Source: Kribbella kalugense
GTDB taxonomy: Bacteria; Actinomycetota; Actinomycetes; Propionibacteriales; Kribbellaceae
Assembly: GCF_004365875.1 (NCBI RefSeq)
Contig: NZ_SODF01000001.1
Span: 1,054,001 to 1,118,000 of the forward strand
Direction: 5' to 3'
DNA: 64,000 nt
The notes under the pieces are model-generated. The model was not told where the DNA came from and did not search any database. It saw only the letters and a list, made by a program, of their open reading frames with translations. This document shows, piece by piece, positions 2,574-13,615 of the stretch. The position numbers and the translations under genes are program-made. The number at the start of each line of letters is the position of its first letter. Position 1 is the stretch's first letter.

Positions 2574-3626
2574 ATGCGACTCGGACTCAACATCGGCTTC
2601 GTGTTTGGCGGCGACGATCACCTGGACCACCTGAGGCTGGTGAAGGAGGCCGAGGCACTCGGTTTCTCGGTCACCTGGGCCGCGGAGGCGTACGGCTCGG
2701 ACGCCGCCACAGTGCTCAGCTGGATCGCCGCCCAGACCACCAGCATCGACGTCGGCGCGGCCGTCTTCCAGATTCCCGCCCGTACGCCGGCCATGACCGC
2801 GATGACCGCGGCCACCCTGGACCGGCTGTCGAACGGCCGGTTCCGGCTCGGCCTCGGCCTGTCCGGGCCGCAGGTTTCGGAGGGCTGGCACGGCGTCCGG
2901 TTCTCTCAGCCTCTGCTCAGGACCCGTGAGTACGTTGACATCGTGAACGCGGCCCTCCGGCGCGAGACAGTCGCGTACGAAGGGAAGTACTTCACCCTGC
3001 CGCTGCCCGACGGACCGGGCAAGGCGCTGAAACTGACCGTGCGGCCGATCCGCGACCACGTGCCGGTGTACCTGGCCGCGATCGGTCCGAAGAACCTCGA
3101 GCTGGCCGGCGAGATCGCCGACGGCTGGCTCGGGATCCTGAACGATCCTGCCTATCTTGGAGAGCAGTTGACGCACATCAAGGCGGGCCGCTCGGTTCGT
3201 GACCTGGACCTCGACGGCTTCGACGTCGTCGTGAACACCCCGCTGATGACCGGTGACGACCTGCAGGCCGCGGCCGACCCGATCCGTGGGTACGCCGCCT
3301 TGTACATCGGCGGCATGGGCAGCCGGGAGAAGAACTTCTACAACGCACTCGCGGTCCGGATGGGGTACGTCGCGGAGGCCAAGCAGATCCAGGACCTGTA
3401 CCTGGAGAAGAAGCACCGCGAGGCGATGGCCGCCGTACCGTTCGGTTTCCTGGACTCGATCTCGCTGCTCGGGTCGAAGGAGCGGATGGCTGACAAGTTC
3501 ACGGCGTACGCCGAGGCTGGGGCGACGACCGTCTCGCTGACCCCGTTCGCGTCGACCGTCGAGCAGCGGATCGCCGACCTGCGGACCGCCGCCGAGGCGC
3601 TGGAGCTGTCCGGAGTCGGCAACTGA
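2574..3626 (+). CDS. LLM-class F420-dependent oxidoreductase
   Basis: A 350-residue luciferase-like (bacterial luciferase superfamily) TIM-barrel protein. It has the typical opening MRLGLNIGFVFGGDD, then LSNGRFRLGLGLSGPQVSEGWHG, and the phosphate-binding region VPVYLAAIGPKNLELAGEIADGW (quoted in parts). These are hallmarks of the actinobacterial F420-using branch, though FMN use cannot be excluded. The open frame extends far upstream, but the ATG at 2574 gives the family's normal N-terminus and sits just after a -10 box. Its stop overlaps the uppP ATG by one base, so the two are probably co-transcribed. Confidence 0.88.
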   Translation: MRLGLNIGFVFGGDDHLDHLRLVKEAEALGFSVTWAAEAYGSDAATVLSWIAAQTTSIDVGAAVFQIPARTPAMTAMTAATLDRLSNGRFRLGLGLSGPQVSEGWHGVRFSQPLLRTREYVDIVNAALRRETVAYEGKYFTLPLPDGPGKALKLTVRPIRDHVPVYLAAIGPKNLELAGEIADGWLGILNDPAYLGEQLTHIKAGRSVRDLDLDGFDVVVNTPLMTGDDLQAAADPIRGYAALYIGGMGSREKNFYNALAVRMGYVAEAKQIQDLYLEKKHREAMAAVPFGFLDSISLLGSKERMADKFTAYAEAGATTVSLTPFASTVEQRIADLRTAAEALELSGVGN

Positions 3627-4453
3627 TGACGATCTGGGACTCCATCATCCTCGGCATCGTCGAGGGCCTGACCGAATTCCTGCCGGTCTCCAGCACCGGG
3701 CACCTGACGATCGTGTCGAAGATGCTCGGCCTGAAGATCGACGACCCGTCGATCACCGGTTTCACCGCGGTGATCCAGGTCGGCGCGATCGCCGCGGTCG
3801 TCCTGTACTTCTGGAAGGACATCGCCCGGATCGCGGTCGCCTGGGTGCGCGGTCTGGCGAAGCCCGAGCACCGGGGCGAGTTCGACCACCGGATGGGCTG
3901 GTACGTGATCGTCGGCTCGGTCCCGATCGTGATCGTCGGCTTCCTGGCCCGGGACCTGATCTCAGGCCCGCTGCGCAGCCTGTGGTGGGTGGCCGCGGCC
4001 CTGATCGGCTGGTCGGTCGTGATGGTCGCCGCCGAACGCCTCGGCACGAAGGAACGCCCGCTGACCCGCATCACCTTCATGGACGCGCTCGTCATGGGCC
4101 TGGTCCAGTGCCTGGCCCTGATCCCCGGCATCTCCCGCTCAGGCGCAACGATCTCCGCAGGCCTCTTCCGCGGCCTGGACCGAGTAGCGGCCACGAGGAT
4201 CTCGTTCCTGCTCGGCATTCCGGCGTTGGTCGGCGCAGGCGTCTACGAGTTGAAGGACGCCCTCCACGGCACCGTCGGCGCCGTACCCCTGTTGGTCGGC
4301 ACGGTCGTCAGCTTCGTCGTCGCTTATGCGTCGATCGCCTGGCTACTCCGCTTCGTCGCCAAACACACCATCGAAGTCTTCGCCTTCTACCGCGTGCTGC
4401 TCGGAATCGTCCTGGTCATCCTGCTCGCCACGAGCACGATCACGGCAACCTGA
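3626..4453 (+). CDS. uppP: Undecaprenyl-diphosphatase UppP (BacA family)
   Basis: A 275-residue polytopic membrane enzyme that removes a phosphate from undecaprenyl diphosphate, recycling the lipid carrier for peptidoglycan and other envelope polymers; overexpression gives bacitracin resistance in this family. Both active-site motifs are present: EGLTEFLPVSSTGHL at residues 13-27 and PGISRSGATIS around residue 165. At least six hydrophobic segments are visible and the length is standard. The ATG overlaps the stop of the preceding oxidoreductase. CorA lies convergently downstream, with a hairpin between. Confidence 0.95.
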   Translation: MTIWDSIILGIVEGLTEFLPVSSTGHLTIVSKMLGLKIDDPSITGFTAVIQVGAIAAVVLYFWKDIARIAVAWVRGLAKPEHRGEFDHRMGWYVIVGSVPIVIVGFLARDLISGPLRSLWWVAAALIGWSVVMVAAERLGTKERPLTRITFMDALVMGLVQCLALIPGISRSGATISAGLFRGLDRVAATRISFLLGIPALVGAGVYELKDALHGTVGAVPLLVGTVVSFVVAYASIAWLLRFVAKHTIEVFAFYRVLLGIVLVILLATSTITAT

Positions 4454-4538: not shown

Positions 4539-5522
4539 CTACAGCCAGCCGACCTTGCGGAAGAAGCGGTACATGGTGGTGCAGACGGTGGCCATCAGGA
4601 GGAGTACGGCGTAGTAGCCGAAGTGCCAGCGGAGTTCGGGCATGTTGTCGAAGTTCATGCCGTAGATGCCGGCCAGCATGGTGGGAACCGCGGCGATCGC
4701 CACCCAGGCTGAGATTTTCCGCATGTCGTCGTTTTGCTGGACGGAGACGCGGGCGAGGTGCGCGTTCAACGCGGACTGGAGCAGGATGTCGATCGACTCG
4801 GTCTGCTCGGAGACTCGGCTCAGGTGATCGGACACGTCGCGGAAGAACGGGCTCGCTTTCGGACCCAGCCCGGCAACTCCGTGGGCGAACTGCTCCATCG
4901 GTTCGCGCAGCGGGTCGATCGCCCGGCGCATCTCGAGTACCTCGCGCTTCAGCCGGTAGATCCGCTCCGCGTCGCTGGTCCGTTCCGGTGAGAACACCGA
5001 GCTCTCGATCTCGTCGACGTCGATCTCGACCTGCTCGGCGACGCTCTCGTAGTCGTCCACGATCGCGTCGCAGATCGCCCACAGCACCGCGGCCGGCCCG
5101 TGGCCGAGCATCGAGGCGCGCTCCTCGAGTTGGTGCCGGGTGGTCGCGAGCTCACCACCTTTCCCGTGGCGGACGGTCACGACGTACCGCTGGCCGATGA
5201 ACACCGTCACCTGACCGGTCTCGACGGCGTCACCCTCGTCGACGTACCAGAGGGTCCGCAGTACGACGAGGATCGTGTCGCCGAACCGCTCGACCTTCGG
5301 CCGCTGGTGGATCTGCAGGGCGTCCTCGACCGCGAGATCGTGCAGGTTGAACAGGTGCTGGACCCGCTCCATCTCGGCGTGCGACGGCTCGTGCAGCCCG
5401 ATCCACCCGAACGATTCCCGGTCGTCGTCGATGGCCCGGGCAACGGTCTCGGGGTCCTTGGGCAGGTCCTGCCGTTCCCCCTCGGCGTACACCCCGCAGT
5501 CCACGATCACGCCACCCATCAT
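4539..5522 (-). CDS. corA: CorA family magnesium/cobalt transporter
   Basis: A 327-residue inner-membrane divalent cation channel. The long soluble N-terminal domain is followed by a coiled, charged stalk and two C-terminal membrane helices. The signature GMN is present in IYGMNFDNMPELRW at the end of the first helix, and the protein ends in a basic tail (RFFRKVGWL), as CorA proteins do. The open frame runs upstream to 5903, but the MMGGVIVDCGVY start gives the normal length. No clear ribosome site precedes it. It is divergent from the histidine phosphatase gene, with 37 bases between the starts. Confidence 0.9.
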   Translation of the reverse strand: MMGGVIVDCGVYAEGERQDLPKDPETVARAIDDDRESFGWIGLHEPSHAEMERVQHLFNLHDLAVEDALQIHQRPKVERFGDTILVVLRTLWYVDEGDAVETGQVTVFIGQRYVVTVRHGKGGELATTRHQLEERASMLGHGPAAVLWAICDAIVDDYESVAEQVEIDVDEIESSVFSPERTSDAERIYRLKREVLEMRRAIDPLREPMEQFAHGVAGLGPKASPFFRDVSDHLSRVSEQTESIDILLQSALNAHLARVSVQQNDDMRKISAWVAIAAVPTMLAGIYGMNFDNMPELRWHFGYYAVLLLMATVCTTMYRFFRKVGWL

Positions 5523-5559
5523 GGCACCATGACTTGGCCGACCCGATAACGTGCACTGC

Positions 5560-6255
5560 ATGCCCACGGTGATTCTGGTCCGCCACGGCCGCAGTGCCGC
5601 GAACACGTCCGGCACGCTGGCCGGCCGCACGCCCGGCGTGAAGCTGGACGACACCGGTGTCAAACAAGCCGAGGCGGTCGCGCAGCGGCTGGCCGAACTG
5701 CCGCTGGCCGCGATCGTGACCTCGCCGCTCGAGCGCTGCAAGCAGACCGCCGCGGCGATCGCCAAGCTCCATCCGGAGTTGCGTCCGGCAACCGACCGGC
5801 GGCTGACCGAGTGCGGGTACGGCGATTGGACCGGTAAGAAGATCGCCACCCTGGCGAAGGATCCGCTCTGGACCGTCGTCCAGCAGCACCCGTCCGCGGT
5901 CACGTTCCCGAACGGCGAGTCGATGCGCGGGATGCAGCAGCGGGCCGTCGACGCCGTCCGCGCGCATGACGCGGCGCTGGCGAAGAGTCATGGCAGCAAC
6001 GCGATCTGGGTGGCGGTGTCGCACGGCGACGTGATCAAGGCGATCGTTGCCGATGCGCTCGGTCAGCACCTGGACACTTTCCAGCGGATCGTCGTCGACA
6101 CCGCGTCGACCACGATCATCACCTACACCGCGACCCGCCCGTTCCTGGTCCGTCTGAACGACTCCGGCAGCGAGCTAGCATCGCTGATCCCTAAGCCGTC
6201 AGCGAAAGGCAAGCCCAAGAAGCAATCGTCCGACGCAGTGGTCGGCGGACGGTAA
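5560..6255 (+). CDS. MSMEG_4193-type histidine phosphatase/phosphomutase-like protein
   Basis: A 231-residue member of the phosphoglycerate-mutase-like histidine phosphatase superfamily. The phosphohistidine motif RHG is at residues 8-10 of MPTVILVRHGRS, a conserved LTECGYGDW follows, and the second catalytic His is in VAVSHGDVIKAI. It belongs to the actinobacterial MSMEG_4193 type. I chose ATG 5560 over GTG 5551 because TAACGT lies 7 bases upstream (leaderless arrangement) and the family starts this way. It is the first gene of a conserved trio with DUF3090 and SCO1664, near mshC. The substrate is unknown. Confidence 0.88.
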   Translation: MPTVILVRHGRSAANTSGTLAGRTPGVKLDDTGVKQAEAVAQRLAELPLAAIVTSPLERCKQTAAAIAKLHPELRPATDRRLTECGYGDWTGKKIATLAKDPLWTVVQQHPSAVTFPNGESMRGMQQRAVDAVRAHDAALAKSHGSNAIWVAVSHGDVIKAIVADALGQHLDTFQRIVVDTASTTIITYTATRPFLVRLNDSGSELASLIPKPSAKGKPKKQSSDAVVGGR

Positions 6256-6267
6256 TAGGGTTTAGAC

Positions 6268-6843
6268 ATGGCGCGAGTTGTTCATACCTACGACGACCCC
6301 GAGCGGTTCGTCGCCGGCACCGTGGGGGAACCCGGTGCGAGGACGTTCTTCCTCCAGGCCCGGGCCGGGCAGCGGCTGACCTCGGTGGCGTGTGAGAAGG
6401 AACAGGTGATGGCGCTCGCGGAGCGGCTCGACGTGATGCTGGACGAGGTGGCCCGGCGTTTCGACCGCGATCCGGCTCCGCAGACCGGGGCCGACGACAC
6501 GGCGCCGCTGGAGCAGCCGATCGAGGAGGAGTTCCGGGCCGGCACCATGACGCTGGCCTGGGAGGCCGACGCCGAGCGCGTGGTGATCGAGGTGTTCGCG
6601 GTCGTCACCGGCGAGCAGGTGGACCTCGAGGAGACCGACCCGGTCACTGCCGCGATCGAGTCCGACGACGCCGAGGTGTTCACCGTCCGGATCACCGAGG
6701 AGCAGGCCCGGGCGTTCGCCCGCCGCGCGGTCGCGCTGGTCGCGTCCGGTCGCCCGAGCTGCCCGTTCTGCGGCCGGCCGATCGACGCCGAGGGCCATAT
6801 CTGTCCCCGTGCCAACGGCTACCGCAGGCACCTGCCGGAATGA
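6268..6843 (+). CDS. DUF3090 family protein with C-terminal zinc-knuckle-like motif
   Basis: A 191-residue actinobacterial protein of unknown function, recognised from MARVVHTYDDPERFVAGTVG at the start and FFLQARAGQRLTSVACEKEQ soon after. The C-terminus has Cys165-x2-Cys168, His177 and Cys179 (CPFCGRPIDAEGHICP), a likely zinc site. A TAGGGT box ends 6 bases before the ATG, suggesting an internal leaderless start even though the phosphatase gene ends only 12 bases upstream. Its last four bases (ATGA) contain the start of the SCO1664 gene. The trio is conserved as a block, which implies one pathway. Confidence 0.9.
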   Translation: MARVVHTYDDPERFVAGTVGEPGARTFFLQARAGQRLTSVACEKEQVMALAERLDVMLDEVARRFDRDPAPQTGADDTAPLEQPIEEEFRAGTMTLAWEADAERVVIEVFAVVTGEQVDLEETDPVTAAIESDDAEVFTVRITEEQARAFARRAVALVASGRPSCPFCGRPIDAEGHICPRANGYRRHLPE

Positions 6844-7634
6844 TCGTGAACCCGGAGCTCCTCGCCCTTGGGGAGCTGTCACTGCACGGCCGACTGGTCG
6901 CGGCGTCGAACGGCACCTACCAGGGCTCTGTCAGCCTGGCCGGCGAGACCGCGACCGTGGTCTACAAGCCCGTCGAAGGCGAGCGCCCACTGTGGGACTT
7001 CCCCGACGGGACGCTGGCCCAGCGCGAGTTCGCGGCGTACGTCGTCTCCGAAGCGCTCGGCTGGTCGGTCGTGCCGCCAACGCTGCTGCGTGACGGGCCG
7101 CTCGGTGAGGGCATGGTTCAGCTGTGGATCGACGAGGCCGAGCTCAACGTGGGGGAGACCGAGCTGGTCGACATCGTGCCGCAAGGTCGCGTGCCCAAAG
7201 GCTGGGTCGGCGTACTGGAGGCGCTCGACGGCCGCCACAACCCGGTCACGCTGGTGCACGCGGACAACGACGCGCTGCGGCGGATGGCCGTATTCGATGC
7301 CGTGGTCAACAATGCCGACCGCAAGGGCGGCCACGTGCTGAACCCGGGCGACGGCCGGGTGTACGGCGTCGATCACGGCGTCACGTTCAACGCCGACGAC
7401 AAGCTCCGGACGGTCCTGTGGGGCTGGGCCGGTGACCCGATCCCGGCCGACCTGCTGGCCGACGTACGCCGGTTGGCCGATGAGCTCGCCGGGGGCCTGG
7501 GGCAACAACTCTGCGAACTCATCACCGCCGTCGAGCTGACCGCGACCCGGGAACGCTGCGCGACGTTGCTGAAGACGGGCGCGTTCCCGTACCCGAGCGA
7601 TGAGTGGCCCGCGATTCCCTGGCCGGCGTTCTAG
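6840..7634 (+). CDS. SCO1664 family PI-kinase-like protein
   Basis: A 264-residue protein of the SCO1664 type, distantly related to phosphatidylinositol 3/4-kinases. Lys43 in VVYKPVEGE is a candidate nucleotide-binding lysine. N157-N-A-D160-R161 resembles the catalytic loop, and D178-H-G in VYGVDHGVTFN resembles the metal-binding DFG-like motif. The start overlaps the DUF3090 stop by four bases, so the two are translationally coupled. A kinase-like gene beside a phosphatase-like gene suggests reversible phosphorylation of a metabolite or protein, but no substrate is known. It ends inside the first copy of a 17-base direct repeat. Confidence 0.88.
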   Translation: MIVNPELLALGELSLHGRLVAASNGTYQGSVSLAGETATVVYKPVEGERPLWDFPDGTLAQREFAAYVVSEALGWSVVPPTLLRDGPLGEGMVQLWIDEAELNVGETELVDIVPQGRVPKGWVGVLEALDGRHNPVTLVHADNDALRRMAVFDAVVNNADRKGGHVLNPGDGRVYGVDHGVTFNADDKLRTVLWGWAGDPIPADLLADVRRLADELAGGLGQQLCELITAVELTATRERCATLLKTGAFPYPSDEWPAIPWPAF

Positions 7635-7656
7635 ACGGAGGCCGGCGTTCTAGACG
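7621..7656. repeat. Tandem 17-base direct repeat at a convergent gene junction
   Basis: GGCCGGCGTTCTAGACG occurs at 7621-7637 and again at 7640-7656. The first copy contains the TAG stop of the SCO1664 gene; the second contains the TAG stop of the convergent DUF6882 gene on the other strand. It looks like a local 19-base tandem duplication. Confidence 0.85.
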
Positions 7657-8336
7657 CTCACGTTGCCGAGGCGGCCGTGGTCGTCGAACGACGCGACGAT
7701 CACCTTGCCGTTGGGCGCCGTACCGCGGATCGCGTCGGGAGTCTCGTCGTACTGCAGGCCGAAGTACTGGAAGTAGCCGCGGACGACCTGTCGATGGTCG
7801 GACGGGAAGACGCTGACCGCGGTCACCAGCAGGCGTGGCGTGGCGATCGGATCGAAGGCTGCCCTCGGCAACTGTTCGTCGGCGACATGCAGGTACACGT
7901 GCCCTCGGCCCTCGTTGATCGCGGTCGACCAGACACCGCGACCGCCCAGCACGGAGCCGGCCGTGATCGCGAGTGTGATCGCGGCCTGGGTCGGTTGCGG
8001 GAACCCGCTCAAGTCAGGGGCGTCGGCGGTGAACTCTCCGATCCCGTGCTGCTCACCGAACTCGCGGACCGGCAGCGTCGACGCCACAGCGGGCGCGTCC
8101 GGCCCGAAGCCCGGGTTCGCCCAGCCCCAGAGCCAGGTGTGATCCAGCTCAGAGAAGCTCCCGAGCAGTGAGACCCCACCGAGGACGCCGCGGTCGCCGG
8201 TCAGAGTACGGGCGTCCAGGTCGGCCTGCAGCTCCCCGCTTCCGACCACCTCGTTGAACAGGTCCTGCTGCTGGATCGCGGCGGCGGCGATCCAGCCGCC
8301 GTACGCCTGGAACTCGGGACTGAAGTCAGCGCTCAT
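7650..8336 (-). CDS. DUF6882 family protein
   Basis: A 228-residue cytosolic protein of unknown function. The core LDHTWLWGWANPGFGPDAP and the following region resemble the actinobacterial DUF6882 family, often found as single genes of uncertain role. No signal peptide or membrane segment is visible. I chose the ATG giving MSADFSPEFQAYGGW; the open frame extends 16 codons further without a better site. The gene interrupts the run from the phosphatase trio to mshC on the opposite strand and is divergent from mshC. Confidence 0.7.
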   Translation of the reverse strand: MSADFSPEFQAYGGWIAAAAIQQQDLFNEVVGSGELQADLDARTLTGDRGVLGGVSLLGSFSELDHTWLWGWANPGFGPDAPAVASTLPVREFGEQHGIGEFTADAPDLSGFPQPTQAAITLAITAGSVLGGRGVWSTAINEGRGHVYLHVADEQLPRAAFDPIATPRLLVTAVSVFPSDHRQVVRGYFQYFGLQYDETPDAIRGTAPNGKVIVASFDDHGRLGNVSV

Positions 8337-8437
8337 CGCGGGTGAGGCTAGCGGCAGACGGGGTCCAGCCGGTTTCGGGACCACGGATTGGAACCGTGTC
8401 GCGTCATTGAAAATCGGACTGGCATAAGCTCCGACAC

Positions 8438-9667
8438 ATGCAGGCGTGGACGAAACCAGACATCCCGGTCGTACCCGGGCCGGCCCGGCGGCTCCGCCTC
8501 TACGACACCGCCTCCCGCGGTCTGGTCGAGGTCCCGCCGCCTGTGTCGACTGGTGGCGGCACCGCCCGGATGTACGTGTGCGGCATCACGCCGTACGACG
8601 CGACGCACATGGGCCACGCGGCGACGTACGTCACGTTCGACCTGGTCAACCGCCTCTGGCGGGACGCGGGGTACGACGTCCACTACACGCAGAACATCAC
8701 CGACGTCGACGACCCGCTGCTCGAGCGGGCGACCGCGACCGGGGTCGAGTGGACCGATCTGGCAGCCCAGGAGATCCAGCTGTTCCGCGACGACATGACC
8801 TCCTTGCGGGTGATCCCGCCGCAGCACTACATCGGCGTGGTCGAGTCGATCGACCTGGTCGCCAACGCGGTCGAGGACCTACGGCGAGCCGGCGCGGTCT
8901 ACTCGGTCGACGGAGATCTGTACTTCGCGGTGAAGTCGGACCCTGAGTTCGGCGCCGTGTCCGGGTTCGATCGCGACACCATGCTGGAGCTGTTCGCGGA
9001 GCGCGGCGGTGACCCGGATCGCGAGGGCAAGCGGGATCCGCTGGACAGCCTGCTGTGGCGGCACGAGCGGCCGGGGGAGCCGGCCTGGGACTCGGAGCTT
9101 GGTCGCGGCCGACCGGGTTGGCATGTGGAGTGCTCGGCGATCGCGCTGAAGTACCTCGGGATGACGTTCGACGTCCAGGGTGGTGGCTCGGACCTGATCT
9201 TCCCGCACCACGAGATGTCGGCGAGCGGCGCGCAGGTCGTGACGGGGGAGCACCCGTTCGCGCGGGCGTACGTGCACCAGGCGATGGTTGGTCTCGACGG
9301 CGAGAAGATGTCGAAGTCCAAGGGCAACCTGGTGCTGGTGTCGAAGGAGCGGCTGGCGGGCGTGGATCCGATGGCGATCCGGCTTGCGCTGCTGATGCAT
9401 CACTACCGCACCGACTGGTTCTGGATGGATTCGGATCTGACCGACGCGCAGGCGCGGCTGGATGTATGGCGGGGCGCGATCGGGCGTGGTTCGGGGCCGG
9501 ATGGTGCGTCTGCGGTGGACGCCGTACGCGCTGCTCTCACGAACGATCTCGACAGCGCGGGTGCGCTGGCTGCAGTCGATGCATGGGCCGAGGGTGAAGG
9601 CGACGACCACGAAGCGCCTGCGCTGGTCGCGCAGGCCGTCGACGCCTTGCTCGGTGTGAAGCTCTAG
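8438..9667 (+). CDS. mshC: Mycothiol ligase MshC (cysteine:GlcN-Ins ligase)
   Basis: A 409-residue cysteinyl-tRNA-synthetase-like enzyme that joins cysteine to 1-D-myo-inosityl-2-amino-2-deoxy-alpha-D-glucopyranoside with ATP, the third enzymatic step of mycothiol synthesis. The zinc/HIGH region is [17 protein letters not shown] (Cys48, THMGH 57-60 region) and the KMSKS loop is [10 protein letters not shown]. It is shorter than a true CysRS and lacks the tRNA-binding C-terminus. The N-terminus [15 protein letters not shown] is MshC-like. A TAAGCT box ends 7 bases before the ATG and no ribosome site is visible, suggesting a leaderless message. Confidence 0.95.
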
Positions 9668-9673
9668 ACAAGC

Positions 9674-9721
9674 GAGTGGGGAGGATCTTGTGCCGGATCG
9701 GGCACAAGATCCTCCCCACTC
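9674..9721. terminator. Strong bidirectional terminator after mshC
   Basis: A perfect 21-base inverted repeat (arms 9674-9694 and 9701-9721) encloses a 6-base loop (9695-9700). It begins 6 bases after the mshC stop and ends 11 bases before the stop of the convergent gene. The perfection and position make it a convincing shared terminator. Confidence 0.85.
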
Positions 9722-9732
9722 TTCATGATTCG

Positions 9733-10626
9733 TCAGCCGGTGACGGCCTGGTGGGTCTTGATCGGGGTCGGGACCGGCGCGGCCGGCGGGGTGTCGAGCT
9801 GCGGCGGCGCCGGGTTGTCCGGGTGCGGGGTCGGCTTGGGCTTCGGCTTCGCGGCCGGCTTGGCGCAGGTGGCCGATGCCAGGTTGATGACCTCTGCGCC
9901 GCCGCCGAGGTTGATGCTCAGGCCGGTGATCGTGAACGAGCCGTCCGAGTGCTTGCCCTGGCTGTTGACGCTGATCGCCGCCAGCGGGTTGGACGGCAGG
10001 GATGCGCCCTGCTTGGTGCTCGGCAGCTTCAAAGTCTGACCGAGCAGCGTCACCGAGCCGAGGTCGACACCGCCGGAATCACCCGAGCAGTAGACGTTCA
10101 GGGAGTCGATGGCGAGCAGCGACTTCGGCGGGTTGAGCAGCAGGTTGCACAGGTCGGGGAGGTTCTTGACCGGCAGGTCCTTGGTGCTCAGCTTCGGTAG
10201 CGGCAGGCCGAGGTCGGGCAGCGCGATGTCCGGGATCGGCAGGTCGTTCGCGCCGGTCGCCGGAAGGCTCGCGCACTGCTGCTTCAGCTCCGGCGGGATC
10301 TGCACCTGGCTGAGGATGTCGGGGCCGACCACGATGTCGAACAGCTCGACCGAGGCCGAGTCGTTGCCGGCGGTCGCCGTACCGGCCCGGACCGAGAGCA
10401 GCGGGTTCTTCGGGAGCTCCAGCGCGGACGTCGTCTGCCGCTTGCCGTCGAGAGACTCGGCCAGCGGCGTCTTCGGGATCGGCACCTGGCCTTCCGCGCT
10501 CACGGCGTACGCCGAGGACGGGCGGGCCGCCGCGTTCCCGACGGGAGCACTGGCGACCAGGCTGAACGTCACGACCCCCGCGACGGCCGCAGCCGTCAGC
10601 ACGGTCGGAGTCAACTGTCGTCGCAT
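9733..10626 (-). CDS. Secreted choice-of-anchor P family protein
   Basis: A 297-residue exported protein. An N-terminal signal peptide (MRRQLTPTVLTAAAVAGVV, then an Ala-rich stretch to about residue 34) is followed by a Leu/Pro/Asp-rich domain of the choice-of-anchor P type. The last 40 residues are a Lys/Pro-rich tail (KPAAKPKPKPTPHPDNPAPP) without LPXTG or a final membrane helix, so surface attachment would have to be non-covalent. AAGGAG lies 7 bases before the ATG. It starts 11 bases after the stop of the L,D-transpeptidase gene, so the two form an operon and probably act in the same envelope process. Confidence 0.75.
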   Translation of the reverse strand: MRRQLTPTVLTAAAVAGVVTFSLVASAPVGNAAARPSSAYAVSAEGQVPIPKTPLAESLDGKRQTTSALELPKNPLLSVRAGTATAGNDSASVELFDIVVGPDILSQVQIPPELKQQCASLPATGANDLPIPDIALPDLGLPLPKLSTKDLPVKNLPDLCNLLLNPPKSLLAIDSLNVYCSGDSGGVDLGSVTLLGQTLKLPSTKQGASLPSNPLAAISVNSQGKHSDGSFTITGLSINLGGGAEVINLASATCAKPAAKPKPKPTPHPDNPAPPQLDTPPAAPVPTPIKTHQAVTG

Positions 10627-12365: not shown

Positions 12366-12734
12366 GTGCGAATCGGCGAGCTGGCGCGGCGGACCGGCGT
12401 AAGCGAGCGGTCGCTGCGGTACTACGAGGTGCAGGGACTACTCGTGTCCGACCGGACTGCCGGTGGCCAGCGTGAGTACGCCGAACGCGCCGTCGACCGG
12501 GTCATCCTGATCCAGGAACTGTTCGCCGCCGGCCTGCACAGCAAGAAGATCGCGGAACTGCTGCCGTGCATGCGCGACCCGGACGGCGGCCCGAACGAGC
12601 GGGCCACGCCGGAACTCGTCACCGAGCTCACCGCCGAACGGGACCGGATCGACCGGATGATCGGCGACCTCACCACGTCTCGCGCCGTACTCGACGACGT
12701 GATCACCACCGCGACCCGCGAGCTGCCCGCTTAG
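12366..12734 (+). CDS. MerR-family transcriptional regulator
   Basis: A 122-residue regulator with an N-terminal winged helix-turn-helix (MRIGELARRTGVSERSLRYY, then EVQGLL) and a C-terminal coiled-coil dimer helix (about residues 75-115). No Cys-rich metal site is seen at the C-terminus; a single Cys occurs in LLPCMRDPDGG, so a metal or redox sensor is not evident. I chose GTG 12366 because GGAGG lies 5 bases upstream and the family starts with this motif; the ATG-like extension to 12339 would start inside the operator. Its stop overlaps the PAC2 stop by four bases. Confidence 0.85.
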   Translation: MRIGELARRTGVSERSLRYYEVQGLLVSDRTAGGQREYAERAVDRVILIQELFAAGLHSKKIAELLPCMRDPDGGPNERATPELVTELTAERDRIDRMIGDLTTSRAVLDDVITTATRELPA

Positions 12735-13615
12735 TCGCTGGGGTGGTTCTTGTTACGCCGCCTGAGGTAGCGCTCGAACTCGGCCGCTATCGCCTCGCCG
12801 GTCGCTTCGGGCAGGTCGGTGGTGTCGCGCTGCTCCTCGAGCGACTGGACGTACTCGGCGACCTCAGGATCCTCTTCGCTGAGCTCGTCCGCGCCGCGCT
12901 GCCAAGCCCGGGCCAGCTCGGGCAGCTCGCCCTCGGGAATGGCGAGATCCAGTAGCGCCTCGATCTTGCCGAGCAAGGCCAGCGACGCCTTCGGGCACGG
13001 CGTACCGGCGATGTAGTGCGGGATTGCGGACCAGATCGAGACCGACGGGATGCCGAGCGTGGTGCACAGGTCGGCGAAGACACCGGTGATGCCGGTCGGG
13101 CCTTCGTACGTCGACGGCTCGAGGCTCCAGGACGCGGTCAGCTCCGGGTCAGACGAGGTCGCGGAGACCGGGATCGGGCGGGTGTGGGGCGAGTCCGCGA
13201 GCAGCGCGCCGAGGACGACGACGATCTGGGCGTTGGACTCGTCGACGATCTCCAGCAGCTCGCGGGAGAACGCCCGCCAGCGCATGTTCGGCTCGATCCC
13301 GCGGATCAGCAGGATGTCCCGGCCGGTGTCCTCAGGCCGGGCCACGTAGACCCGGGTGGTCGGCCAGGACAGCCGCCGTACGCCCTCCTCGTCGAGGCCG
13401 ACCTGGGGGCGGTTCACCTGGAAGTCGTAGTAGTCCTCGGGGTCGATCGCCGTGACGAGCTCCGCCTCCCACTCGTCGACGAGGTGGTCGACTGCTCCGG
13501 TGGCCGCCTCGGCCGCGTCGTTCCAGCCCTCGAACGCGGCGATCACGACCGGGTCCCTCAGGTTCGCGAGGTCAACCACTCGCAGGCCCCCTGTCGTCTC
13601 GTAGCCATCCAGCAC
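12731..13615 (-). CDS. PAC2 family protein (proteasome assembly chaperone-like)
   Basis: A 294-residue protein of the PAC2 superfamily, whose eukaryotic members help assemble the 20S proteasome. Actinobacterial members are common beside proteasome or mycothiol genes, but their function is unproven. Typical segments are VVIAAFEGWNDAAEAATGAV, DILLIRGIEPNMRWR and SIWSAIPHYIAGTPCPKASL. The C-terminus is charged and probably helical. It is convergent with the MerR gene and divergent from the HAD phosphatase gene, with 162 bases between the latter starts. Confidence 0.88.
   Translation of the reverse strand: MLDGYETTGGLRVVDLANLRDPVVIAAFEGWNDAAEAATGAVDHLVDEWEAELVTAIDPEDYYDFQVNRPQVGLDEEGVRRLSWPTTRVYVARPEDTGRDILLIRGIEPNMRWRAFSRELLEIVDESNAQIVVVLGALLADSPHTRPIPVSATSSDPELTASWSLEPSTYEGPTGITGVFADLCTTLGIPSVSIWSAIPHYIAGTPCPKASLALLGKIEALLDLAIPEGELPELARAWQRGADELSEEDPEVAEYVQSLEEQRDTTDLPEATGEAIAAEFERYLRRRNKNHPSD

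Follow-up and report, generated by a model that had tools for sequence, protein, structure and literature searches.

A run of three consecutive genes in the window, the whole 64,000-nucleotide stretch of the Kribbella kalugense contig NZ_SODF01000001.1 that was analysed (positions 1,054,001 to 1,118,000), encodes a histidine phosphatase, a DUF3090 protein, and an SCO1664 protein. We tentatively propose that this trio constitutes a self-contained reversible phosphorylation switch with a protein as its target, a reading that we consider quite possible and hold with reserve. SCO1664 would be the writer, a small kinase of the type II phosphatidylinositol 4-kinase (PI4K)/FAM20/HipA superfamily, and DUF3090 its near-obligate partner, which carries the invariant polar and charged residues R25, E43, K44, Q46, R162, and N183 and would probably serve to recruit the target or present it. 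The eraser would be the histidine phosphatase, a role in which it may be swapped for a dual-specificity (DSP)-type phosphatase, relocated or lost. The target would most likely be a protein, and the nearby mycothiol cysteine ligase gene mshC would belong to the surroundings of the trio in the window's class rather than to its substrate pathway. Co-occurrence, gene order, predicted folds, invariant catalytic residues, the replacement of the phosphatase, and one fusion form the observed basis of this proposal, from which catalysis, the role of DUF3090 as partner, the direction of the cycle, and the kind of target are inferred. A kinase tied to a single specific partner in two phyla is expected to act on a defined and ancient target, whose identification would assign a function to DUF3090 and SCO1664 as well as a substrate to the histidine phosphatase.

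A first-pass annotation of this DNA had described the three consecutive genes, an ATGA overlap and mshC 0.8 kb further on, all of which is confirmed by family scores and coordinates (Table 1). The residues it named are likewise present, namely C165, C168, H177, and C179 in DUF3090 and K43, D160, R161, and D178 in SCO1664. Its description of the block as undescribed was too strong. The window proteins exceed the cut-offs of three NCBIfam families without assigned function (TIGR03843, TIGR03847, and TIGR03848), whose curators, as we understand it, describe the gene trio and already note the presence of its families in Chloroflexi. In addition, three papers mention the link between SCO1664 and mshC (PMC4255298), a DUF3090 motif (PMC9425974), and assays of the mycobacterial protein Rv2135c (PMC3866925). 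The trio families and the SCO1664-mshC neighbourhood are thus already known. The openly licensed literature searched by name and topic assigns, in its accessible text, no function to DUF3090 or SCO1664. Absent from this text, and apparently new relative to it, are the PUR/Whirly-like fold predicted for DUF3090, its pairing with SCO1664 in Chloroflexota even without linkage, the trio's independence from mycothiol, the dispensability of the zinc site, and the replacement of the phosphatase.

Distribution and gene order of the trio

Among 149 Actinomycetota genomes drawn evenly across the phylum, with profile matches counted at E<=0.001, SCO1664 (TIGR03843) and DUF3090 (TIGR03847) are present in the identical 64 genomes, and neither is found in the other 85. 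The curated cut-offs are exceeded in 62 and 58 of these 64 genomes, respectively. TIGR03848 exceeds its own cut-off in 51 of the 149 genomes and weaker superfamily matches occur in 140, so that the position of the phosphatase gene is the informative part. Gene order was compared at 60 loci from 59 of the 64 SCO1664 genomes (the window's own genome, G071, G093, G104, and G123 being omitted). The phosphatase, DUF3090 and SCO1664 genes follow each other in this order on the same strand at 57 loci, the exceptions being a second copy (L102) and two loci at contig ends (L117 and L118). This consistency argues that the arrangement is not due to chance.

The 80 best loci from a profile search of genome contigs comprise, by record title, 26 from Actinomycetota, 53 from Chloroflexota, and one labelled Nitrospinota. 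Strict trio order is found in 25 of the 26 Actinomycetota and 35 of the 53 Chloroflexota loci, so that the conserved three-gene block described in the first-pass annotation is borne out in both phyla. At 14 further Chloroflexota loci DUF3090 is present and no phosphatase adjoins SCO1664, while four loci have no DUF3090 within 3 kb. Altogether, no phosphatase adjoins SCO1664 in 18 of the 53, among which L130, L137, and L182 are cut by a contig edge and so do not bear on this point, the phosphatase of L130 being truncated there.

An even draw of 151 Chloroflexota genomes contains SCO1664 in 83 and DUF3090 in 100, with both present in 79 and neither in 47 (Fisher p 7.5e-18, uncorrected for phylogeny). 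In 26 of the 79 genomes with both genes, these do not lie within 3 kb of each other on one contig. Assembly breaks account for part of these cases (e.g., G205); in at least 14, however, each gene sits over 3 kb away from any contig end, or the two are apart on a shared contig, which argues that the pairing of SCO1664 with DUF3090 is not mere linkage. Where an SCO1664 locus lacks DUF3090 (L185, L191, L195, and L157), the latter is found elsewhere in the genome in three of the four cases, and no match was found in genome G149; in the Frankia genome of L157, the distant DUF3090 match carries one internal stop. Across 20 genomes in which a member is seemingly missing, distant or cut, 17 have a TIGR03848 match, which exceeds the cut-off in two. 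SCO1664 is thus nearly always accompanied by DUF3090, DUF3090 is not always accompanied by SCO1664, and the phosphatase is the least tightly associated of the three.

A maximum-likelihood tree of 81 SCO1664 proteins groups them by phylum (2 changes vs. a shuffled mean of about 23), which fits an old and mostly vertically inherited unit. The exceptions, the Chloroflexota sequence L130 and the deep Actinomycetota sequences L123, L150, and L154, each on the opposite side, have weak support. An origin from mobile elements was considered and rejected. Searches of plasmid and phage records gave two and one records, respectively. One "plasmid" record measures 11.85 Mb (Nonomuraea). Another, "plasmid 20" of Tsukamurella tyrosinosolvens (L121), carries a uppP-trio-mshC-PAC2-metH block, of which the uppP-trio-mshC-PAC2 part has the order seen in Actinomycetia loci, and is possibly a mislabelled chromosome piece. 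The "Bacteriophage sp." record (L122, MT835969) is an unverified and unannotated faecal-sample scaffold that bears the trio with about 2.7 kb from phosphatase to DUF3090, probably a bacterial fragment.

Predicted folds and catalytic residues of the three proteins

The SCO1664 model (pLDDT 94.6, pTM 0.92) is closest in fold to type II PI4-kinases, with VIA Z values of 17.4–18.9 over about 230 residues. The top match is PI4KII-beta (Z 18.9 over 229 of 264 residues, 17% identity), and PI4KIIalpha is the best Foldseek match (E 1.4e-6). The next folds are those of FAM20 (Z up to 14.4), CtkA (13.7), and HipA (11.1), all of which are protein kinases, followed at Z 9 to 10 by PI4K-III beta, the lipid kinase MavQ, and RIO kinases. 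At the sequence level, Pfam matches at E<=1 among the 81 aligned members comprise PF00454 in 78 (best 1.6e-11), HipA_2 in 39, and Fam20C in 14. Searches against the sequences of solved structures returned only TM1086 for SCO1664 alone (E 0.015), and FAM20A (best E 1.8e-4) with weak PI4K matches for its profile. The protein kinases are therefore represented both by the next-best folds and, for HipA_2 and Fam20C, by sequence, at a structural similarity below that of PI4KII. As regards HipA, no HipB-like antitoxin came to notice within the conserved unit, no search having been aimed at one.

Residues K43, E63, D160, R161, K162, H165, and D178 are invariant in all 81 sequences. The earlier description of SCO1664 as PI-kinase-like is thus upheld by fold and residues alike: the protein has counterparts of the Lys, Glu, Asp-Arg, and Asp-x-Gly elements of type II PI4K, all of them fully or almost fully conserved. 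Unlike type II PI4K, it is bacterial, is encoded together with DUF3090 and a phosphatase, and has a His in place of an Asn. The catalytic loop of PI-kinases reads DRxxxN, where the Asn binds metal; in the window it reads DRKGGH and does not match this pattern. As judged from the alignment, H165 at the metal-binding position appears to be the only clear deviation from the canonical site, and it may alter catalysis. An invariant His at this position would also suit an ATP-binding pseudokinase serving as a scaffold for DUF3090, with the phosphatase, as the loosest member of the trio, acting elsewhere. This explanation is decidedly improbable, given that K43, E63, D160, and D178 are conserved without exception, as expected of an active enzyme.

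For DUF3090, the model (pLDDT 87.9, pTM 0.78) predicts two beta4-alpha repeats. All five top VIA entries are PUR-alpha (Z 10.0–9.3 over 109–115 residues at 3–4 A), with the best alignment reaching Z 10.0 over 112 residues, and they are followed by a cupin-like protein of unknown function (6.7) and by Whirly and MRP1/2 guide-RNA proteins (5–6). The tool gives Z 7–8 as typical for models without a clear match. Foldseek is weak, with a best E of 0.035 (PUR). The sequence profile of the family contains an internal repeat, which scores 20.8, the highest score among 30 column shuffles being 14.4. The consistent list of matches, Z values above 7–8, and the internal sequence repeat point to a PUR/Whirly-like (PC4-like) fold with two beta4-alpha repeats, as a prediction. 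PUR domains retain their fold with almost no sequence conservation (PMC7990775). Sequence searches with DUF3090 returned nothing credible from solved structures (best E 0.54 alone and 0.038 as a profile), and a viral fold library gave a best E of 0.015. In the DUF3090 lists, PX domains reach a Foldseek E of 0.78 at best, and PH-like domains at most Z 5.2.

DUF3090 is thus predicted to share its two repeats with the PUR-alpha, Whirly, and PC4-like binders of single-stranded nucleic acid. In contrast to PUR-alpha and Whirly, the family is acidic (median pI, i.e., isoelectric point, 4.65), has a C-terminal zinc knuckle in most members, and contains the invariant elements E43-K44-x-Q46 and G161-R162. 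Ten positions are invariant in all 75 aligned sequences (G20, G23, R25, F27, E43, K44, Q46, G161, R162, and N183). None is a Ser, Thr or Tyr, and DUF3090 itself is therefore unlikely to be the phosphorylation target.

The predicted fold raises the question of an RNA or nucleoprotein switch, in which DUF3090 would bind single-stranded nucleic acid and the kinase would mark either the nucleic acid or a protein on it. Such a switch would agree with the PUR-alpha, Whirly, and MRP1/2 matches, and a LigT/2'-5' RNA-ligase-like gene lies convergent to SCO1664 in 5 of 20 Chloroflexota loci of this gene, taken from genomes in which it is unlinked to DUF3090 or occurs without it (L257, L260, L265, L269, and L272, all unlinked to DUF3090; Pfam was run on one). 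These neighbours are nonetheless on the opposite strand and confined to few lineages, the Foldseek E of 0.035 is modest when taken alone, and the acidity of DUF3090 argues against general nucleic-acid binding. We regard an RNA-directed switch as improbable. The DUF3090 gene of Mycobacterium tuberculosis is, we presume, Rv2134c. In M. bovis BCG, one study lists BCG_2151c/Rv2134c among 24 transposon mutants with decreased survival at 8 ng/ml rifampicin, where BCG_2151c mutants are under-represented (log2 -1.42, adjusted P<0.001), a descriptive result (PMC11329110). This phenotype would fit a role in transcription and equally effects on the envelope or others. In three of the five loci with an RNA-ligase-like neighbour (L257, L260, and L265), SCO1664 is also preceded by a gene that weakly matches phage endonuclease I.

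The zinc site suspected in the first-pass annotation is real as a motif and dispensable as a feature. Its CxxC..HxC pattern had been noted before (PMC9425974). Of 75 DUF3090 sequences, 59 have the CCHC form, 4 a CCNC form, and 12 none; in the latter, the loop is gone and GR(A/P/V) is joined almost directly to the NG end. The knuckle is also missing from DUF3090 at the Nitrospinota-labelled locus L165. Together with L139, which was excluded from the count on account of its two DUF3090 domains, the 12 knuckle-less loci make up a single SCO1664 clade, which comprises 13 Chloroflexota sequences (support 85/87). All 13 loci retain SCO1664 and a phosphatase match, which suggests that the knuckle is more likely a structural staple than an active part.

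The histidine phosphatase retains the catalytic RH, Arg, Glu, and His of its superfamily, with R8, H9, R59, E84, and H155 invariant in all 61 aligned sequences. In 6 of 40 Chloroflexota DUF3090 loci (L213, L216, L222, L225, L227, and L241), a gene of one family, encoding a phosphatase of the DSP or protein tyrosine phosphatase (PTP) type with a CxxGxxR loop, lies directly 3' of DUF3090; Pfam was run on the gene of L216 only. Five of the genomes concerned lack an SCO1664 match; G192, the remaining one, carries SCO1664 along with another copy of DUF3090. Furthermore, the Anaerolineae metagenome-assembled genome locus L139 carries a histidine phosphatase and a DUF3090 domain in one 373-codon frame (L139:6233-7351), followed by a second DUF3090 and SCO1664. 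A single fusion in a metagenome assembly is weak on its own, yet it agrees with the DSP replacement in suggesting that the phosphatase belongs with DUF3090.

We take Rv2135c of M. tuberculosis to be a member of TIGR03848. Like the window phosphatase, it is a histidine phosphatase, and a uppP homologue lies next to it; its description reports a weak acid phosphatase that was assayed on artificial and small substrates only, that is inactive on glucose-6-phosphate, ADP, and 3-phosphoglycerate, that has a Km of 8–14 mM on the substrates it cleaves, and that is detected in membrane fractions (PMC3866925). Given the weak activity and high Km, the real target is probably none of the assayed compounds.

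The nature of the target

The best rival to a protein-directed switch is a phosphoinositide cycle, in which SCO1664 would add a phosphate to phosphatidylinositol or to an inositol phosphate, a phosphatase of the histidine or DSP type would take it off, and DUF3090 would bind or present the lipid. SCO1664 is clearly closer in fold to type II PI4K than to FAM20, the next match (Z 18.9 vs. 14.4), and PF00454 is its best Pfam family, while the window protein falls short of the PF00454 gathering score (12.9 vs. 27.1 bits) and the closest fold to DUF3090 binds nucleic acid and not lipid. The inositol gene ino1 (PF01658) is found in 61 of the 64 trio genomes compared to 44 of the 85 other Actinomycetota genomes (Fisher p 1.5e-9, uncorrected for phylogeny, which may be all that this association reflects). 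In contrast, ino1 occurs in 142 of the 151 Chloroflexota genomes without any link to SCO1664 (p 0.51), and six SCO1664-bearing Chloroflexota genomes have no ino1 match (G178, G188, G301, G232, G264, and G272). As a gauge of inositol dependence, ino1 is therefore suggestive in Actinomycetota and uninformative in Chloroflexota.

We know of no kinase that has been identified for the phosphoinositide formed by M. smegmatis under stress. Its de novo formation (Morita et al., 2010, as cited in PMC6176652 and PMC11237483) and the detection of Rv2135c in membrane fractions would both suit a lipid target. On balance, we judge a phosphoinositide cycle somewhat unlikely. A bolder version, which we consider unlikely, would have an ancestral and indigenous phosphoinositide signalling system in Actinomycetota and Chloroflexota, with SCO1664 as a true PI kinase and source of the M. 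smegmatis stress phosphoinositide, the phosphatase as eraser, and DUF3090 as reader or presenter. Should the target be an inositol lipid, the enzyme behind the stress-induced phosphoinositide of mycobacteria would become directly testable.

The protein-directed switch has to be weighed against several results that count against it. By the structure model, the nearest fold to SCO1664 appears to be that of a lipid kinase and not of a protein kinase, the H165 substitution may affect catalysis, and the acidity of DUF3090 is not what this fold would lead one to expect of a nucleic-acid binder. The proximity of mshC in 12 of 13 genomes of the window's class is treated as incidental. DUF3090 occurs without SCO1664 in 21 of the 100 DUF3090-bearing Chloroflexota genomes, all 21 exceeding the Pfam cut-off for DUF3090, and was not found in 4 of the 83 SCO1664-bearing ones. 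In Actinomycetota, the second locus of genome G008 (L102) is an SCO1664-phosphatase pair without DUF3090, and in the control genome of Corynebacterium glutamicum both SCO1664 and TIGR03848 give a match, with none for DUF3090 by either TIGR03847 or PF11290. In addition, the co-occurrence counts are confounded by phylogeny. The expectation that the families occur together therefore holds for the Actinomycetota sample, and not for the 21 Chloroflexota genomes with DUF3090 alone or for C. glutamicum. Likewise, the complete cycle seen in the first-pass annotation stands insofar as a kinase-like protein, a phosphatase, and a third protein are encoded together, but the unit is not indivisible, as those 21 genomes and the 18 Chloroflexota loci without an adjoining phosphatase indicate.

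mshC and the wider neighbourhood

The neighbourhood of mshC is genuine and, in these samples, limited to the window's class. MshC exceeds its cut-off in 13 of the 149 Actinomycetota genomes, namely the window genome and 12 others of its class, all of which carry the trio. In 12 of the 13, mshC lies within 1.61 kb of SCO1664, the distance being no more than 226 bases in seven of them; the mshC of G008 is on a different contig from the trio. A further 15 SCO1664 genomes (e.g., G129, G016, and G110) contain an MshC-like protein scoring 391–446 bits, below the cut-off, whose gene is on a different contig from the trio or separated from it by at least 108 kb; these proteins are possibly a different Cys ligase or divergent MshC. 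In the remaining 36 of the 64 trio genomes, nothing MshC-like scores above 345 bits. Among the best 80 loci, mshC is absent from the flanks (up to 8 kb) of the 53 from Chloroflexota, a phylum in which no genome-wide mshC search was made.

The trio could in principle be a step in, or a regulator of, mycothiol or pseudodisaccharide metabolism, as the close linkage in the window's class and PMC4255298, where SCO1664 is called invariably closely linked to mshC and a possible part of the mycothiol network, would suggest. With MshC over its cut-off in only 13 of the 64 trio genomes and the trio widespread in Chloroflexota, mycothiol is not its common thread; dependence on mycothiol as a common denominator is rejected, and a role in this metabolism is very improbable. 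The hint at thiol or pseudodisaccharide metabolism drawn earlier from the mshC neighbourhood is not sustained. The trio instead fits an old unit of two phyla that is independent of mycothiol, and setting it apart in this way redirects experiments away from thiol measurements.

Table 1. Coordinates of the trio and its neighbours in the window.
Feature	Position	Strand	Basis
TIGR03848 histidine phosphatase (MSMEG_4193 family)	5560..6255	+	TIGR03848 314.8 bits (cut-off 203.85); PF00300 168.5 bits
DUF3090	6268..6843	+	TIGR03847 232 bits (cut-off 117.25); PF11290 217.3 bits (cut-off 27)
SCO1664	6840..7634	+	TIGR03843 377 bits (cut-off 172.4)
DUF3090 zinc knuckle C165-x2-C168-x8-H177-x-C179	6760..6804	+	sequence motif
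DUF6882 gene, outside the conserved unit, between trio and mshC	7650..8384	-	PF21813 E 7.7e-22
mshC, mycothiol cysteine ligase	8438..9667	+	TIGR03447 635 bits (cut-off 485.1)
CorA-type transporter, divergent from the trio, 37 bases between	4539..5522	-	TIGR00383 205.4 bits
uppP	3626..4453	+	NF001392 389.2 bits
PAC2-family gene	12734-13615	-	

Within the window, the ATGA overlap is shared by the DUF3090 and SCO1664 genes, and mshC starts 803 bases past the end of SCO1664. With the opposite-strand DUF6882 gene between them, the trio and mshC do not form a simple operon in this genome. An in-frame GTG at 5551 offers an alternative start for the phosphatase; the ATG at 5560 is preferred, as the family match begins at VILVRHG. 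A scan of positions 5400-9800 for promoters and terminators found no promoter-like sites and one terminator-like site, compared to 0.8 expected by chance.

No functional neighbour shared outside the window's class was seen among the recurrent neighbours annotated (20 family representatives scanned). Those that vary between lineages include acetyl-CoA synthetase, Ppx/GppA, enolase, fumarase, an ABC transporter with a histidine kinase, RecO, undecaprenyl diphosphate synthase, and citrate synthase. In Actinomycetia, uppP is a recurrent upstream neighbour, with a similarity match in 9 of the 82 loci scanned, all from Actinomycetota. The PAC2-family gene of the window recurs 3' of mshC in Actinomycetia loci and may be a counterpart of SCO1662 (ParJ), which is numbered next to mshC (SCO1663) in Streptomyces.

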